From NCBI GenBank assembly GCA_029260075.1, contig JAJDDY010000056.1, positions 1-64,000 of the forward strand: DNA of 64,000 bases. The letters run 5' to 3'. The notes beneath the pieces are model-generated. The model was not told where the DNA came from, made no database searches, and saw only the letters and a program-made list of their open reading frames with translations. Shown in pieces: positions 1,237 through 60,448 of this stretch (positions within the stretch are counted from its first letter, which is position 1; the number at the start of each line of letters is the position of its first letter). A program made the position numbers and the translations under genes. The stretch is from Phycisphaerae bacterium. GTDB taxonomy: Bacteria; Planctomycetota; Phycisphaerae; UBA1845.

Positions 1237-1556
1237 TCAGAGCCGTGGGCGCAAGCCCATGGACATCCCCCGTCCTTGCGCCAACACTTGAACGCAACCC
1301 CAGCCGCGCACCGTCACAAGCGGCAACCACTGTCACCGGGCTAGCGCCCCGTGCTCTGACAGCCCACGTACTCCGCGACGCCCACCGTCGCAACCGCTCA
1401 GAGCCGAGGGCGCAAGCCCAAAGACAGGTCAGAGCCGTGGGCGCAAGCCCATGGTCAAGTCAGCATCATCGCCCCATACCCACCGCCAAGTCAGAGCCGA
1501 GGGCGCGAGCCCTCGGACATGTCCACAATGTACTCTTAGCGCAAGCCCTCGGACAC
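1237..1556. repeat. REP/BIME array, left of RAYT gene
   Basis: Six copies or partial copies of a REP hairpin with core GCCGTGGGCGCAAGCCCACG: forward at 1237-1265, 1398-1425, 1429-1455, 1491-1519 and a partial at 1538-1556, and one in inverse orientation at 1332-1360 reading CACCGGGCTAGCGCCCCGTG. Each begins with a conserved TCAGAGC (GCTCTGAC when inverted). Mixed orientation is typical of BIMEs. The block 1237-1460 has a diverged copy at 2222-2445, on the other side of the transposase gene. The rest of the gap from 1187 to 1626 holds no gene. Confidence 0.85.
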
Positions 1557-1626
1557 GAACGAACTCGAGCGTACCCCTCTCACTCAATTCTCAACGTCTC
1601 ACGTGCCACCGGCACCGAGTGACCAA

Positions 1627-2154
1627 TCACGGCATCCGCGAACCCGGCCGATCTTGGAAACGGGTCGCATCCTGACACTCGGTCACATAGGCGACGGCAG
1701 GCTCGAGGTCGCACGTCCTCCACAGATAACGCGTGCTGCCATGACGCGTCCACACCGGCTGATCCGGTGCCGTCAAACACTGCTCCCGAAGCCGACGCGA
1801 ACTCCAGGCCTTCCATTGACCCATCATCCGCTCCGGCGCCACGCCGGAGAATCCAACCACGACATGAACGTGATTGCTCCTCGCGTTCACCGCATGAAGT
1901 TCCCACCCGCGACGTTCACAGTGATTGCGAACGGTTTCCGCGACAATCTGTCTAGCTTCAGTGGTCAATCGAACCCGCGGATGCGTCATGCGACGACGCA
2001 GGGCGGCGAGGCGTCGCTTGTCCGGAGGTATGAAGGCCGTCCCGTAGGCGTTGTGCTCTTGATCCACCGACCCACGGTCGTCACCAAAAAGCCAAGTACC
2101 GTAGCAAGTCCAAGTGATGAGAAACCCAACTGGGTCCGACACAACACCCACCAT
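1627..2154 (-). CDS. rayT: REP-associated tyrosine transposase (RAYT, Y1 family)
   Basis: A 175-residue single-domain Y1 HUH endonuclease related to IS200/IS605 TnpA. The N-terminus FLITWTCYGTWLFGDDRGSV is characteristic of RAYT proteins. The HUH motif is H95-V96-H97 in SNHVHVVV, and the probable catalytic tyrosine is Y156 in AVAYVTECQ. Members of this family cut and mobilise REP hairpins in trans. The gene lies exactly between two arrays of REP-like palindromes, which are its likely substrates. It seems intact, with all catalytic residues and no frameshift. The ATG at 2154 gives the expected N-terminus. Confidence 0.88.
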   Translation of the reverse strand: MVGVVSDPVGFLITWTCYGTWLFGDDRGSVDQEHNAYGTAFIPPDKRRLAALRRRMTHPRVRLTTEARQIVAETVRNHCERRGWELHAVNARSNHVHVVVGFSGVAPERMMGQWKAWSSRRLREQCLTAPDQPVWTRHGSTRYLWRTCDLEPAVAYVTECQDATRFQDRPGSRMP

Positions 2155-2190
2155 CCCTACGCCGTCCCGCGGCGCAAGCCAACGAACAAA

Positions 2191-2521
2191 TCAAAGCCGA
2201 GGGCGCAGGCCCGCAGACAAGTCAGAGCCGTGGGCGCAAGCCCACGGACATCCCCCGTCCTTGCCCACACACGCGAACACGACTCCCGCCGAACACCGCC
2301 GCGAGGATACATCAAAGTCACCGGGCTCGCGCCCAGTGCTCTGACAGACTACGTACCCCGCAACGCCCACCGTCGTAACCGCTCGGAGCCGCGGGCGCAA
2401 GCCCTCGGACACCTCAGAGCCGTGGGCGCAAGCCCACGGACAAGGCCCCTCCCGGACGCCACTCGTCAACACAACCACAACGCGAGATCAATGTCACCGG
2501 GCTCGCGCCCGGTGCTTTGAC
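2191..2521. repeat. REP/BIME array, right of RAYT gene
   Basis: Six REP units: forward at 2191-2219, 2222-2250, 2382-2410 and 2413-2442, inverse at 2317-2345 and 2493-2521 (CACCGGGCTCGCGCCCGGTG, a near-perfect hairpin). The order forward, inverse, forward, forward across 2222-2445 repeats the order and spacing seen at 1237-1460, including the non-REP spacer ACGCCCACCGTCG. This indicates a block duplication around the transposase gene. The rest of the gap to 2615 has no gene. Confidence 0.85.
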
Positions 2522-2702: not shown

Positions 2703-5699
2703 CTACGCACGGCTATCGATGTTCGCGATAGTCAACGTATCGTGCGCCGCCTGCGTGGTGATGTTGGTCAACTCACCGATCAGCGTGCTCGCACCGGCAT
2801 CCGAAGATGTGAAGTGAATGATCTTCGTCGTGTTGCTGCCGGTGTCGAAGTAAAAGTACACTTGATCGAGGTTCGCACCACCGACCGCGATCTGAGTGTT
2901 GATGGCCGTGTCAGCGGCTCCCTGCGTGGCATAACCAACAACGGTGAGGATGATTATCTCGTCCGTAGCCACGTTGGCGACGCCAGCAATAAGCCCGACG
3001 AACTCCGTACCGCCGGCAAGACCAAGTGCACTGATGTCGAACAACGCCACGTCGCCAGCAGCGCCGGCAGTGAAGTCCGAGATCGTGTTCTTATCCGCGG
3101 TAGCGGTACGAGTGAAGATCACAGTATCCGCCTCTGACCCTGTGGAGATGGTATCCGAACCGCCATCACTTTCGATGGTGTCGGTGCCAGCCCCGGCGTT
3201 GATCACATCGGCCGAGTTCGCGTCGGTACTCGTCAAGGTGTCGTTTCCGCCACCCAATGTAATCACCGAACTTGTCGAGCCGCTGTCGCCAACGGTGAAG
3301 GCATCGTTACCGCCACCACTGGTGAGCGACGCACCGGTCGCCAGATCGGCACACGTCACAGAGAAGTTACCTACCACGCCGCCGGCGTTGATCGACGTGA
3401 TCGAGTCCGTACCGCCGGTGGTCAGCGTGTTGAGCGTCAAGTTGCTGCTACCGTTCGCTGTCAGCGAAACGAGCGTACTGGCCGTGATTCCGGTGGTTAC
3501 CGTCGCCGGTCCGTCGCTGGCCGTGCAGGTAAGGTTCTCAATGAACGGAACCGTAAGTGCGCCAACGGTATGACCATTGGTCGTGCCCGATGCATTGAGC
3601 GCCTTGCCGCGGTTACCAATCGTAATCGTCAGGGCATCGCCCGAGCCGCCAGTCCCGGTGGACTGATAGGTGATCGCGTCATAACCCTGGGCCGCCTGGG
3701 ACGAATCGCCCCGGAAGTCGAGGGACGGAAGCGGGGAACCCGAGATATTGAGGAGCGTAATCGCGTCGGTCGAAGGACCACCGCTCGCACCATCAATCGT
3801 CACGTTCGCGATACCGGTGACACCGGTCATGTTCAGGCTACTCGTCGCCGTGGCGTTCAAGAACAGGTTCTCGATGCCCTTGATCGGCAAGACACTGCCG
3901 ATCGAGCTGCTCAAGGTTGCCTGCATGCCGTCCGTGCCAGTTCCACCGTCAATGAACTCAGTGGTGCCCGACGCGTCGTTACCATTAAACGTGGTACCGA
4001 AGACGAACATGTCGTTGCCCGTTCCACCGGTCATCGTCTTGATGTTGACATTGCCGGCATGGAATGCGGCGTAGGCAGCAGCCGTCGAGCCATCGCCCGT
4101 ACCAAGCGTCAAGGCCCCAGTCATGGCGCTACCGTCGAACGTAACGACAGTGTTGTCCGTTCGGCGAAGCTCCATGGCCTGCGCCCCAGTGAAGGTTCCT
4201 TTGACGAGCGAGGTGCTGGCGGTCTGCGTGACGTTCGTGAGCGTGTTCTTGCCCGTTCCCGTGCTCGCAATGCTGAAGCTCTCGAAGCCGCTCGCGGCGG
4301 CGGGTGTAACCGTAACCGTACCGGCCTGAACCGGATCAAGCGTAATCGCCAAGTTGTCAGCCGTTCCAGCCGTGGCGCCCGCATCGAACGACGCCGTGAT
4401 GCCGGAGTCGGTGTTCATAAGACCGAGGCCAACAGCATTCGGCAGGTTGTTCACGGTGAGCAACTGGGTACTGTCGACCGAGTTGACGTTCGTGGCACCA
4501 GTGATCTTGTTGGCCGCAAGTGCGAAACCACCGTCAAAAACGCTGACGTTGATGGTCTCAATCCCATCGATGGTCGGCGTCGCTGCACCACCGTTGGAGG
4601 TGGCGTTCAACGTATCGTTACCGGCAAGGCCCGTGGCCTTGTCACCTGTTTGCAGGGTCTCGATTTGAGCACCAGCACCCGGGCTGAACTCGATGGGACC
4701 GTTGAAGACGTCGTCACCGGTCGTACCGACCAAGTTGTCCTGGCCGAGCGTGAAGTCTTGCGACGGACTCGGGCACGGCGTGCAAACGGCCGCGGTATCA
4801 CCCTCTTCGCAGAACTCCGTAGCCGTGGCGTCGGTGCATCCGGCTCCACCGGCATCGCTGCAAGCACGCGTACCGGCGATGCAATCACCGGCGGCGTTGC
4901 ACGTCTCGGCACCGTTGCAGAACACGCCGTCAGCGCAGTCGGCGTCAGTCGTGCACGTCGGCTTGGCGTCACAGGTTCCTGTGGCTTCGGTGCAATCTTG
5001 CGTGGCTGCATCGCACGGGTCGCCCGGCGAAACGCAGTCACCGGTGACGTCGTCACAGGTCTCGACACCGTCACAGAAAATACCGTTGTCGCAATCCTTC
5101 TGAGTGAAGGTGCAAACACCGTTGACACAAGAATCATCGGTGCAAGCAAGTTGGTCGTCGCAGTCGCCGGCGCTCGTGCAACCGGGGGTGCAGACGTTGG
5201 CTTCGCAGGTCTCGGTGTCGGCGCAGTCTGCATCAACTTCGCAGCAACCGTCGATCGAGTCTCCACTGCACGTTCCGCCGCCACAGACGTCGCCGTCGGT
5301 GCAGAGGTCACCGTCGTCGCAATCGGCGGTGTTGTTCTCGCTGGAACAAACGCCGTCGGCGCCACAGGTGTCGGTCGTGCACTCGTTACCGTCGTCGCAC
5401 TCGGCATCGTCCGCGCACGCCGTGGTGCACTCGCCAGTGTCCGTATTGCAGTCTTCGCCGGCGGCACACTTCGGCGAGCTGCCGCACGAACCGTCGGCGA
5501 GGCATGTGTTCACCGTACACGGATCATTGTCATCACAAGACGCCGCCGGATCGTCGGCGGTGTTGCAATCGTTGGTCACGGGCGGACAACCCGTTAGGAA
5601 GACCAATACGGAGAACACGCCAAAAGACGTACCCAACCGAGCGACACCACTCCTGAGCGAGCGAAGCCTTACGTTACTGTCTGTCATCAAACCTAGCAT
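2703..5699 (-). CDS. Large Cys-rich / RTX-like surface lipoprotein
   Basis: A 998-residue predicted surface protein. The ATG at 5699 is chosen because GGGAGG lies 9 bases upstream. A signal peptide ends at the lipobox LTGC (Cys38), implying a lipidated protein. Residues about 45-310 form a Cys-rich region with repeats of the CDDGNECTTDTCGADGVC kind, seen in secreted planctomycete and myxobacterial proteins. From TLGQDNLVGTTGDDVFNG onward it is a Thr/Ala/Gly-rich beta-strand domain reminiscent of S-layer proteins. Near the C-terminus, GGNDTLTSTDANSADVINAG and GAGTDTIESDGGSDTI resemble RTX calcium-binding nonapeptides. It is transcribed alone and has its own terminator. A cell-envelope or S-layer role is inferred; no enzymatic motif is visible. 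Confidence 0.82.
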   Translation of the reverse strand: MLGLMTDSNVRLRSLRSGVARLGTSFGVFSVLVFLTGCPPVTNDCNTADDPAASCDDNDPCTVNTCLADGSCGSSPKCAAGEDCNTDTGECTTACADDAECDDGNECTTDTCGADGVCSSENNTADCDDGDLCTDGDVCGGGTCSGDSIDGCCEVDADCADTETCEANVCTPGCTSAGDCDDQLACTDDSCVNGVCTFTQKDCDNGIFCDGVETCDDVTGDCVSPGDPCDAATQDCTEATGTCDAKPTCTTDADCADGVFCNGAETCNAAGDCIAGTRACSDAGGAGCTDATATEFCEEGDTAAVCTPCPSPSQDFTLGQDNLVGTTGDDVFNGPIEFSPGAGAQIETLQTGDKATGLAGNDTLNATSNGGAATPTIDGIETINVSVFDGGFALAANKITGATNVNSVDSTQLLTVNNLPNAVGLGLMNTDSGITASFDAGATAGTADNLAITLDPVQAGTVTVTPAAASGFESFSIASTGTGKNTLTNVTQTASTSLVKGTFTGAQAMELRRTDNTVVTFDGSAMTGALTLGTGDGSTAAAYAAFHAGNVNIKTMTGGTGNDMFVFGTTFNGNDASGTTEFIDGGTGTDGMQATLSSSIGSVLPIKGIENLFLNATATSSLNMTGVTGIANVTIDGASGGPSTDAITLLNISGSPLPSLDFRGDSSQAAQGYDAITYQSTGTGGSGDALTITIGNRGKALNASGTTNGHTVGALTVPFIENLTCTASDGPATVTTGITASTLVSLTANGSSNLTLNTLTTGGTDSITSINAGGVVGNFSVTCADLATGASLTSGGGNDAFTVGDSGSTSSVITLGGGNDTLTSTDANSADVINAGAGTDTIESDGGSDTISTGSEADTVIFTRTATADKNTISDFTAGAAGDVALFDISALGLAGGTEFVGLIAGVANVATDEIIILTVVGYATQGAADTAINTQIAVGGANLDQVYFYFDTGSNTTKIIHFTSSDAGASTLIGELTNITTQAAHDTLTIANIDSRA

Positions 5700-6712
5700 T
5701 CTCTTGGACCTCCCGAAAAAGAAGCTTGTGGCGTGCATATTGAAATTCGTTTCGCACACGCTATTAGTCAAAACCAAACGATACACATATCGAACATGCA
5801 CCCGAGGTACCCGCGCCACGCGCGGACACACCGGGGGCATGTCACCCTGAACAACGCAAAACCGATCGATCAGCACTGCTACGTCTAGCAGTGAGCCACG
5901 CTCGGCTATGTCAAAACCTTCGCAATGCGTTACTCGACCAAAACGCCCTGATGGCCGAAGCCCTCATCGTCCCGTCTACGCGCCATGCATGGGACGACAA
6001 CCTCGGCTCGCGTGCCCAGCTCGCATGCAATCTCTATCGAGATGAGCACGCGAACCCAGTTCGAGTTACGCGGGCGAATTGTAGGAGTTGGCCAAGGCAA
6101 GTCAACGGGCAAATCCGAAAGTTTTTGCCAGCCTCACGTTACCAACCAATTCGGGCGTGATTACAGCAGCGCCCGCCCTACACACGTTGAGTGCTCATCG
6201 GTCCGACGTGCGCCGAAGCTTGAACAAAGATGGCGGAAACGAAAATCGGCAATGCGCAAATTCCCGGGCGATTCGACCGAGTCTGATGCACGCGGCCACT
6301 AACGCCGCGTCTGCCGGTTCCTATCGGGCAACGGCAGGAGATACCTGCTCTAACAAATTAAGGATTTGTCTGCAATTCTCCGAAGGGTCGACCCGACCAC
6401 AGGCGTCGCGGCAGCCAGTTGGCCTCATCCCAAAAAGCCATTTTTAGCGTTAGAGAATGGACCTGCATTTACAATTCACAGTATTCGAGGCGATTGAGGG
6501 GCGTGCGGGGGGTATGGGTGGAGTTGACAGCGGCTAGTGCAGCGTCACACCTTAATCTTCGGGTTGTCGCCGCCCGCACCAGCAACGCCAGGCACGCCGG
6601 TCAGAGGCCGCCGCGCTAGCGGTGGGACCGGTCCGCAGGCTGGCGCCCACGGCGCTGATTCCGTCGAAAACCCGTAGATTTGGGCGTGACGGAGCCCTGG
6701 GGAGATTTAAGG
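5700..6712. other. 1-kb intergenic region without recognisable genes
   Basis: Reading frames here are short and overlapping and resemble no known family. No tRNA, terminator or repeat copy was recognised. The part next to 5700 carries the ribosome binding site of the lipoprotein gene and presumably its promoter. A TTGACT is visible on the minus strand near 5770, but no convincing -10 partner was found. Confidence 0.5.
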
Positions 6713-7429: not shown

Positions 7430-7566
7430 AATGACGGGTATACCGAGCCGCGACCGTAAGGAAGCGGACGTTGGAAATCCGATCGTGACAGCATGAGTAC
7501 GCTCCCTTACGGTCGCGGCTCGGATCGGATCGGACGAACCCGTCACTTGAGTCGTGACAAAGCGCC
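7430..7566 (+). repeat. Family A palindromic element, copy A1
   Basis: Reads ACCGAGCCGCGACCGTAAGG, a 40-base centre containing ATCCGATCGTGACAGC, then CTCCCTTACGGTCGCGGCTC, and ends GTCACTTGAGTCGTGACAAA followed by GCGC. The long imperfect inverted repeat can fold into one large hairpin. It lies between coaC and coaB. The remaining sequence up to 7678 holds nothing recognisable. Confidence 0.85.
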
Positions 7567-11397: not shown

Positions 11398-11506
11398 ATT
11401 CCAGTTCGAGAAGCCAACGGTACGCGATCAGGCCCTACCAGCCTGCTTGCTTGCAAGAGTGTATCACGCGATTCATCTTTGGGGCATGCCTCGGAAGCCT
11501 CTTTCA

Positions 11507-11574
11507 GAGCCGCGCCCGTCAGGAAGCGGTCCGGGCTCGCGCGTGAAGACCGCTTCCTCACGGGCGCGGCTCGG
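11507..11574. repeat. Family A element, compact variant A2
   Basis: A short palindromic relative with GAGCCGCGCCCGTCAGGAAG facing CTTCCTCACGGGCGCGGCTC around a 28-base centre. It lacks the outer arms found in other copies. It lies upstream of tpiA. Confidence 0.75.
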
Positions 11575-11720: not shown

Positions 11721-11900
11721 TGCTTAGTCACGACTCAGGTGACAGGTTCGTCCGATCCGAGCCGCGACCGTAACGGAGCGATCTCAAGATGTCACGACCG
11801 GATTGCCGACGCCCGCTTCCTTACGGTCGCGGCTCGGTACGGTCGCGGCTCGGTACGGTCGCGGCTCGGTAAACCCGTCAATCGACGTGTGACCGAGCAC
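11721..11900 (-). repeat. Family A element, copy A3, with internal 16-bp tandem repeats
   Basis: A full-length copy, inverted relative to A1, starting TGCTTAGTCACGACTCAGGT and ending TGACCGAGCAC. The right arm TACGGTCGCGGCTCGG is tandemly repeated three times (about 11822-11870), which lengthens it. It ends just downstream of the aroF stop codon at 11915. Confidence 0.85.
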
Positions 11901-16724: not shown

Positions 16725-16839
16725 CGATCCGAGCCGCGACCGTAAGGGAGCGCTTTCAAGCTGTCACGACCGGTCTCAGACGTCCGCTTCCTTACGGTCG
16801 CGCCTCGGTAAATGCGTCATTCGACGTGCAACGGGCCAC
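16725..16839 (-). repeat. Family A element, copy A4
   Basis: Reads GAGCCGCGACCGTAAGGGAG, centre with GTCACGACCGG, then CTTCCTTACGGTCGCGCCTC, ending GGGCCAC next to CTAG. The TAG of that CTAG is the stop codon of the following leftward lipoprotein gene. Confidence 0.8.
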
Positions 16840-22444: not shown

Positions 22445-22567
22445 GGTCTTCCCGAGCCGCGCCCGTTAGGAAGCGGACGTCTGAATTCCGGTCGTGACAG
22501 CTTCAAAACGCTCCCTCACGGTCGCGGATCGGATGAACCCATCACTTGAGTCACGACGGAGCGCTAG
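22445..22567 (+). repeat. Family A element, copy A5
   Basis: Reads CCGAGCCGCGCCCGTTAGG, centre with TTCCGGTCGTGACAGC, then CTCCCTCACGGTCGCGG, and ends GAGTCACGACGGAGCGCTAG. It lies between the convergent asparaginase and LiaF-like genes, and the terminal CTAG provides the stop codon of the latter. Confidence 0.82.
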
Positions 22568-23522: not shown

Positions 23523-23656
23523 CGATGGCGGGTTTGCCGAGCCGCGCCCGTAAGGAAACGGACGCTTGAGACCCGGTCGTCACAGCATGAAAGCACTCCC
23601 TCACGGTCGCGGCTCGGATCGGACGAACCCGTCACTTGAGTCGCGGCACACCGCTA
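23523..23656 (+). repeat. Family A element, copy A6
   Basis: Starts GATGGCGGGTTTGCCGAGCC, has arms GCCGCGCCCGTAAGG and CTCCCTCACGGTCGCGGC, and ends GTCACTTGAGTCGCGGCACA before CCGCTAG. The TAG is the stop codon of the S9 peptidase gene read leftward. Other sequence in the gap from 23140 to 23360 holds nothing recognised. Confidence 0.82.
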
Positions 23657-25777: not shown

Positions 25778-26278
25778 GAGTGTCATCCTTTGTCAATTGC
25801 GTTGTCCGTAACGGCGATGCGGAAACGTTGAGAAGTACTTCGGGCGAAACTGTCTGTCGGGCGCCTCAGTGAAACAACATTGGCTTCGGCGTATCACGAG
25901 TATTGACACTCGTTGCCGACTGCTTCCGCCGAAACCGGCGTCCGATTGCGGTCCGAGCCGTAGGATCCCGTTCGCTGCAATTTCGCGGAGAAACGCGTGT
26001 TCGTCAACCGCGCCCGTGTCGACGCGGCGGGCTGGGGGCGTGACACAATCGGCGGGAAGCTTTCAGAACCGGAAGCGCCAGCGCCGGGTCTTGGGTGGTC
26101 ATTCAAGCGCGTCGGAACCCGCTCGCTTGCGCTCGGGGCTCTGACAGGAAGTACGGCGCCGACGTGCCCGCGTCTACGGCTAACGTCTTGACCTTTGGGC
26201 CGATAGGCCTACGCTCTCCCGGAATGGCGGTGGAAGAGCTGGCGTGGGGACGTCCATGCAGGTTCGTCGACCCCGCTC
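25778..26278. other. Intergenic region with one REP-like palindrome
   Basis: Nothing coding was recognised. Around 26112-26150, CCCGCTCGCTTGCGCTCGGG followed by GCTCTGACAGG resembles the inverse orientation of the RAYT-associated REP, sharing its GCTCTGACAG end, and may be a solitary relative. The stem is imperfect. Confidence 0.4.
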
Positions 26279-36970: not shown

Positions 36971-37078
36971 CGCCTCGAATGAGGGGTTGACCGAGCCGCG
37001 CCCGTAGGGAAGCGGACGTCTCAAATCCGGTCATGACAGCTCGAAAACGCTCCCTCACGGTCGCGGCTCGGATCGGTC
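36971..37078 (+). repeat. Family A element, copy A8
   Basis: Starts CTCGAATGAGGGGTTGACCG, arms GAGCCGCGCCCGTAGGGAAG and CTCCCTCACGGTCGCGGCTC. The right outer arm is replaced by family B element B2, directly joined. Confidence 0.78.
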
Positions 37079-45745: not shown

Positions 45746-45820
45746 GCCGAGCCGCGACCGTGAGGGAGCGGTTGTTCGCCTCACACATGGGCCGCTTCCT
45801 TACGGTCGCGGCTCGGTAAG
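45746..45820 (+). repeat. Family A element, compact copy A10
   Basis: GAGCCGCGACCGTGAGGGAG and CTTCCTTACGGTCGCGGCTC around a 30-base centre. It lies between the convergent KamA-family and glycosyltransferase genes, close to both stop codons. Confidence 0.8.
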
Positions 45821-51990: not shown

Positions 51991-52139
51991 GCGCTTTGTC
52001 ACACATCGACTGACGAGTTTACCGAGCCGCGCCCGTGAGGAAGCGGATGTTTGCAATCCGGTCGTGACAGATTCACAACGCTCCCTTACGGTCGCGGCTC
52101 GGTTCGGGCGAACGCGTCACTTGAGTCGTGACAAAGCGC
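51991..52139 (+). repeat. Family A element, complete copy A11
   Basis: The best-defined copy: about 149 bp bounded by the perfect terminal inverted repeat GCGCTTTGTCAC ... GTGACAAAGCGC. Internal arms are GAGCCGCGCCCGTGAGGAAG and CTCCCTTACGGTCGCGGCTC, and CTAG precedes the left end. Confidence 0.88.
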
Positions 52140-58077: not shown

Positions 58078-58302
58078 GCTCTGTCACGCATCGAATGGCG
58101 GGTTTACCGAGCGACGGGTTTACCGAGCGACAGGTTTACCGAGCGACAGGTTTACCGAGCAGCGACCGTAAGGAAGCGGACGTTTGAAATCCGTCGGGTG
58201 GCCCACCACTGTAGAGATGGGCCACCCAGTCGGTCGTGACGGCTTGGGAACGCTCCCTCACGGTCGCGGCTCGGATCGAACGAACCCATCGATTCAGTCG
58301 AG
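58078..58302 (+). repeat. Family A element, composite copy A13 with nested B element
   Basis: Starts TGCTCTGTCACGCATCGAAT. The segment GACGGGTTTACCGAGC then occurs four times in tandem (about 58100-58170, two units with A for G). The centre of the element is interrupted at 58196-58231 by a B hairpin, after which the right half (GTCGTGACGGCTTGGGAACG, CTCCCTCACGGTCGCGGCTC) resumes. Confidence 0.85.
58196..58231 (+). repeat. Family B element B6 inserted in A13
   Basis: GGGTGGCCCACCACTGTAGA followed by GATGGGCCACCCAG. TCGG occurs directly on the left and right of it, which may be a target duplication. Confidence 0.78.
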
Positions 58303-60313: not shown

Positions 60314-60448
60314 TGCTCCGTCACACCCCGAATGGCGGGTCTACCGAGCCGCACCCGTGAGGAAGCAGACGTTTGAAATTCGGTCGTGACCGCTTGAAAA
60401 CGCTCCCTTACGGCCGCGGCTCGGATCGGAAGAACCCGTCACTTGAGG
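60314..60448 (+). repeat. Family A element, copy A15
   Basis: TGCTCCGTCACACCCCGAAT, GAGCCGCACCCGTGAGGAAG, centre with TTCGGTCGTGACCGC, CTCCCTTACGGCCGCGGCTC and GAACCCGTCACTTGAG; the last outer bases are lost. Confidence 0.82.

Follow-up and report, generated by a model that had tools for sequence, protein, structure and literature searches.

A probable class 3 TnpA_Y1 REPtron with a locally duplicated REPIN array segment in a Phycisphaerae genome

The locus and its gene

The window analysed here is a stretch of 64,000 nucleotides that opens contig 52 of a 4.92-Mb draft genome (93 contigs, 97% complete) of a Phycisphaerae bacterium. Close to its start lies a RAYT gene with REP units on both sides, and the features of the locus, together with one related element outside of it, are as follows:

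1237-1459, + strand: left copy of the block, REP units in the order +, −, +, + with spacers; 82.5% identical to 2222-2444
1237-1265, + strand: REP, head type, in the left block
1331-1359, − strand: REP, tail type (GAGCAC...GGTGAC), in the left block
1398-1426, + strand: REP, head type, in the left block
1429-1457, + strand: REP, head type, in the left block
1491-1519, + strand: REP, head type, outside the block
about 1537-1557, + strand: decayed REP, 3' half
1627-2154, − strand: predicted RAYT / TnpA class 3 gene, 175 aa; NHVH, W135-T136, Y156----Q161; Pfam Y1_Tnp at 38.7 bits
about 2167-2186, + strand: decayed REP, 3' half
2191-2219, + strand: REP, head type, 5 mismatches
2222-2444, + strand: right copy of the block, from the alignment with 1237-1459; two copies only in the genome
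2222-2250, + strand: REP, head type, consensus; DNA hairpin of −11.1 kcal/mol, z −5.7
2316-2344, − strand: REP, tail type, in the right block
2383-2411, + strand: REP, head type, in the right block
2414-2442, + strand: REP, head type, consensus, in the right block
2492-2520, − strand: REP, tail type; with the unit at 2414 a further REPIN, the second half of which repeats 2292-2345 (80%)
about 6534-6699, − strand: TIR MITE of family B with a REP-like hairpin inside (6630-6658); related, outside the REPtron

The reading frame of the RAYT is intact over 175 codons. Among the 11 homologues compared, the HUH motif (N94 H95 V96 H97) is invariant, as are W135, Y156 and Q161, with T136 completing the W[TA] motif, and the stretch WTRHGSTRYLW followed by Y156....Q161 is common to all of them. 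A PDB sequence search with the protein returned no match and structural relatives emerged by fold search only, in which the AlphaFold model (pLDDT 78) retrieved the TnpA proteins of IS200, IS608, and ISDra2 as the best matches; the match to the E. coli TnpA_REP-hairpin structure (4er8) was weaker. The protein scored 22.5 bits (cut-off 80) with NCBIfam model NF047646, REP_Tyr_transpos, which describes GTAG-type RAYTs, and 33.3 bits (cut-off 55) with NF033573, the IS200/IS605 transposase. The gene occurs as a single copy in its own genome, where the nearest paralogue stands at 45%, and homologues are mostly from the Phycisphaerales and other Planctomycetota; the best 80 genome matches belong mostly to Planctomycetota, then to Acidobacteriota, Chloroflexota, and others. 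The product is predicted to be an intact Y1 HUH transposase, and a first-pass annotation of the locus as a REPtron, a RAYT flanked by REP arrays, is supported by a gene of this type lying between its own REPs and having a TnpA-like predicted fold.

Class 3 TnpA_Y1 proteins have been described as carrying NHVH, W[TA], and Y----Q motifs, as measuring about 178 aa and as being flanked by hairpins with a CnGA foot, with hosts mainly amongst the Planctomycetes, Acidobacteria, and Proteobacteria (Quentin, Siguier, Chandler and Fichant 2018, PMC6006769). The window RAYT agrees in every feature tested (NHVH, WT, Y----Q, a planctomycete host, and CnGA-foot hairpins), while larger REPIN arrays and the duplicated block distinguish it from the published members.

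Two neighbouring features are also present. Four GTGCCGTGAATCCTTTCTCGGCACC REPs form a tandem array with a 40-nt period at 542-686, and similar repeats flank a different RAYT of the genome (C86:223198, L036). On the other side, a gene for a 1057-aa RTX/hemolysin-type calcium-binding repeat protein (2703-5876, − strand) has a counterpart with 28% identity that keeps its position beside the RAYT in a related genome, G003.

REP units form asymmetric REPINs

Eight forward and three inverse units amount to 11 recognisable REPs in the array at the RAYT, and an earlier count of at least 12 is reached only by adding the two decayed 3' halves. The units share an 8-bp stem and a GCNA-type loop and, in those of the head type, a CAGA foot one base ahead of the stem (CCGA in G003). 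A head subtype, TCAGAGCCGTGGGCGCAAGCCCACGGAC, alternates with a tail subtype on the opposite strand, TCAGAGCACCGGGCGCGAGCCCGGTGAC, yielding REPINs of 107–123 nt, and the asymmetry between the two halves (GAGCC..GGAC versus GAGCAC..GGTGAC) is kept in homologues. Three segments, 1237-1359, 2222-2344, and 2414-2520, consist of two inverted REPs around a short spacer, as REPINs are defined. The first two each fold as a long hairpin (z of −4.5 and −2.6) and the third as two separate hairpins (z −3.8), with z values of −5.7, −3.2, and −4.8 for the DNA folding of single REPs. Across 22 REP variants from the genome itself and its relatives, a set in which units of the window are mixed with consensus sequences chosen by the author, changes on both sides of the stem occurred in 27 cells compared to 9.0 in shuffles, and 95.5% of stem cells were paired (at most 39% in a slid control). 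The repeating unit is a REPIN with two unlike halves, and covariation in its stems is strong.

A block shared by both flanks

The segments 1237-1459 and 2222-2444 align without a gap over 223 nt at 82.5% identity, with 90.5% identity in the REP columns (116 nt) and 73.8% in the spacer columns (107 nt). Units follow the order +, −, +, + in both (starting at 1237, 1331, 1398, and 1429 and at 2222, 2316, 2383, and 2414), the steps from REP to REP are the same (94, 67, and 31), and just beyond the edges of the block similarity is at chance level (18/60 and 21/60). The 65-nt spacer agrees with its partner at 44 of 65 positions, where the runner-up site in the 64 kb reaches 33 (mean, 17.7; s.d., 3.6), and the 38-nt spacer, which contains ACGCCCACCGTCG, at 33 of 38 positions, where the next best reaches 23. 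The duplicated block was correctly recognised from its order, spacing, and spacers at first pass. In a whole-genome search, the block with its spacers was found at these two sites only, the remaining matches being single REPs of ~30 nt.

Convergence between two independent REP arrays could draw on the inherent likeness of REPs and on short-spacer REP arrays being common, but both spacers match far above the rest of the 64 kb and no gap interrupts the 223 nt, leaving convergence a very remote prospect. Duplication of a block is supported and extends to the spacers. The duplicated piece is a segment of the REP array on each side of a gene that is itself unduplicated. The basic repeated unit is the REPIN, made up of a forward REP, a spacer and an inverse REP, and it is tandemly repeated within the right flank as well. 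The first-pass proposal that the whole module was duplicated is therefore retained for the array segments, spacers included, and dropped for the gene.

Local turnover of the arrays

The nearest orthologue (71%) is found in G003, where an RTX-like gene adjoins it with the orientation seen in the window, and the comparison indicates that the gene is vertically inherited at the 3' end of the RTX-like gene, in a second genus too. The G003 RAYT has REPs of the same head/tail form and flanks with a long direct repeat of their own (290 columns at 72%), non-REP sequence included. Similarity between flanks is greater within each genome (scores of 147.5 and 128) than between the genomes (38–76), with shuffles reaching at most 34.5 (n = 200); arrays here have thus been repeatedly duplicated or homogenised, and they turn over locally.

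The flanks of 63 non-embedded homologues with enough flanking sequence were surveyed for such similarity. It exceeded 1.5x the best shuffle in direct orientation for 28 and in inverted orientation for 35, and long direct blocks (≥150 nt, ≥70% identical) were present in only six, with the window and its orthologue among them. With so few cases, duplication is no defining trait of the class.

Dispersed relatives in MITEs

Beyond the locus, the genome was covered with pattern and homology searches. Four of the six closest copies (0–1 mismatch to GCCGTGGGCGCAAGCCCACGG) lie at the RAYT locus and, with a loose REP pattern, about 107 hairpins were found in the genome (reversed control, 0). Read in context, the dispersed hairpins lie mostly within three kinds of MITE, designated B, C, and D. 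Family B ends are of the CTAGTGC type, and their CTAG termini suggest a TA-targeting transposon, the 2–4 bp duplications not being diagnostic; C and D share GGGTGYGTGACAGA ends and have 8–10-bp target duplications in four of five C and three of three D elements scored. In genome G008, a homologue of the window RAYT was looked for and none was found; it holds the same REPIN core in another MITE with TACGTGATTAGCGT ends (9–10-bp duplications in 4/4 scored). Genome G044 has apparently bare REPINs, and at least five related genomes contain the hairpins without a detectable homologue of the window RAYT. Overall, REPIN cores are carried by TIR MITEs of at least three or four types that are unrelated to each other (window 6534-6699 with L008-L030; L062-L082; L085-L114; L258-L264).

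Since the relatives examined are mostly MITE-borne and hairpins are present in genomes lacking a detectable homologue of the RAYT, hairpin dispersal across the genome is only loosely tied to the window RAYT, to which the dispersed copies cannot clearly be credited. The idea that the RAYT produced every dispersed hairpin was rejected once TIRs and target duplications had been found around them. On whether REP copies are concentrated at the RAYT, a check raised at first pass, the near-identical copies are (four of six here, all four of those detected in G003), but ~100 related hairpins are elsewhere, those examined being mostly parts of MITEs.

The same observations could be taken further, with the hairpins functionally unlinked to the RAYT and representing conserved MITE stem-loops (terminators or attenuators) that cluster at the gene by chance. 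Most dispersed relatives examined, both in the genome itself and in G008, are indeed within TIR MITEs, with 8–10-bp target duplications around types C, D, and the G008 type, and the hairpins extend to genomes without the gene. Set against this, the arrays at the RAYT gene lack TIRs of the MITE kind, the G003 copies are confined to its RAYT, a REPIN with diverged letters and the same head/tail form is tandemly repeated beside the RAYT of G023, and hairpins with a CnGA foot are a defining trait of the class (PMC6006769). Chance clustering is accordingly considered improbable. The window RAYT probably recognises the hairpins that flank it.

A solitary diverged unit of the window REP had also been placed near 26112. 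With nine mismatches to the window REP, the unit at 26112-26144 was rejected as a member of the family and matches a different REP, GAGCCCCGAGCGCAAGCGAGCGGG; the closer relative, at 6630-6658 (− strand), had been missed. The GAGCCCCGAGCGCAAGCGAGCGGG REP (26118-26141, − strand) resembles repeats that flank a RAYT in another genome, G002 (L041).

Related RAYTs in frame within host genes

A sister RAYT (45%) is located in frame inside alaS, where synthetase parts precede and follow it in a single 1322-codon open frame (L032:514-3465 = C54:128163-130805), and this is the only alaS found in the genome. It is flanked by CCGAGCCGCGACCG REPs that are read as PSRDRKEA and PLPYGRGS peptides, and 603 sites in the genome match its flanking repeat, CCGAGCCGCGNCCGTNAGGRAGCGG, at ≤1 mismatch (control, 0). 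Within the window, this REP is present as 26 units, almost all of them paired in inverted orientation (REPINs), including the pairs at 7443-7523, 11505-11574, 11757-11837, 16729-16808, 22452-22532, 23537-23617, 36991-37071, 45747-45816, 52022-52102, 58155-58274, and 60344-60424. A third Y1 gene is in frame in the only purH (L037:436-2832 = C88:21272-22996), flanked by GTGGCACCGGCTTCCAGCCGGTG-type repeats.

Embedding in alaS, valS, and purH was called where Pfam segments of the host enzyme occurred on either side of the insert in the same frame, an open frame by itself being insufficient as proof; the DUF1156 cases have Pfam backing for the N-terminal side only. On this basis, relatives carry in-frame RAYTs in alaS (at profile positions of about 263 or about 375), valS, and a DUF1156 methylase. 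Embedded RAYT/Y1 domains were seen in several phyla (DUF1156: L126, L167, L168, L170; valS: L130, L181, L190, L052; alaS at about 375: L131, L146, L192; alaS at 263: L140, L042, L048, L049), and an alaS frame of 1686 aa in G071 apparently contains two RAYTs. Five inserts at the 263 site, from five genera, form one group on the tree (100/77), and for the remaining embedded hosts more than one origin is required, though many branches of the tree are weak. No relevant paper on RAYTs inside tRNA synthetase genes was found in the open-access literature subset, and in-frame embedded relatives are not described in PMC6006769, in which unexpectedly long proteins were set aside as presumed fusions or errors of annotation. 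The window locus adds one more member to an established class; the in-frame embedded RAYTs are the surprising part.

The embedded copies bear on another origin of the two blocks, in which REP-RAYT-REP is a mobile module and transposition or a single-stranded DNA circle brought the RAYT with one array into an existing array, the blocks being the old and the incoming one. Class 3 RAYTs with REP-encoded flanking peptides, in frame at differing sites and with several origins on the tree, are what such a module would leave, and relatives present the alaS 263 site empty, filled with an insert of REPIN size that reads as REP peptides, or occupied by REP-RAYT-REP. Conversely, the window RAYT is a single copy at the same locus as in G003, no evidence for mobility of tnpA_REP genes has been published (PMC6006769, PMC8266576), the blocks are 17.5% diverged so that a fresh event is not visible, and homologous recombination could also bring a RAYT into an existing REPIN. 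Arrival of the window RAYT as a mobile module is judged unlikely.

A broader and tentative proposal, which we hold slightly less probable than its contrary, is that class 3 RAYTs and REPINs may act as an autonomous/non-autonomous pair and become established as REP-RAYT-REP units, in-frame sites in essential genes included. On this view the alaS-borne RAYT, which would be hard to lose through frameshift, stop codon, or deletion, would serve the REP family with the most copies in this genome (about 600), and the window RAYT would represent the free-standing state, its array being mainly local.

Discussion

The locus is best explained, with fairly high confidence as to its identity and the local duplication, as a class 3 TnpA_Y1 REPtron, a single-copy HUH/tyrosine gene between cognate REPIN arrays, with local duplication of the array. 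By analogy with IS200 and TnpA_REP biochemistry, the protein would bind the foot and hairpin on single-stranded DNA and would cleave beside the hairpin through a Tyr-DNA link, such that REPINs could be copied or moved, here mostly locally. From the pattern, the two 223-bp blocks most likely arose when recombination between REPs, or template switching between them, copied part of the REPIN array to the other side of the gene. The greater likeness of REP parts than of spacers (90% versus 74%) would be expected if hairpins recognisable to the protein are under selection or if conversion homogenises them.

In the REPtrons Ma and Mb of Marinomonas sp. MWYL1, REPs are concentrated round tnpA, which was read as recent arrival and local multiplication (PMC8266576), a precedent for multiplication beside the gene; the window shares this concentration, but the Marinomonas REPtrons are GTAG-type and of groups 2 and 3. 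The E. coli TnpA_REP/RAYT (class 2, GTAG REPtrons; 4er8) is alike in its HUH/Tyr core and in a single-copy gene bracketed by REPINs of two subtypes, and the window differs in a CAGA foot without GT[AG]G, a REP_Tyr_transpos score below the cut-off, and a weak structural match. With IS200/IS605 elements (IS608, ISDra2), the locus has the Y1 HUH fold and subterminal hairpins in common, whereas here the gene is single-copy and no element with defined ends recurs in many copies. Palindromes in frame in housekeeping genes are known as intragenic REPs and as Rickettsia palindromic elements (PMC3733652); the insert in the relatives described here goes beyond a palindrome and comprises a whole transposase gene.

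The window locus is a well-preserved case of a class known from sequence only and a good test substrate: its REPs are of two subtypes, head and tail, its array is duplicated on either side of the gene, and the orthologue in G003, which shares the locus, allows comparison. The presence of REPINs within MITEs means that the genome-wide count of a REP need not mirror RAYT activity, a caution for studies that correlate REPs with RAYTs. The family to which the locus belongs bears on how RAYTs last as single-copy genes and on whether they ever move: in-frame residence in alaS, valS, and purH would directly attest to movement and would offer a simple means of retention.
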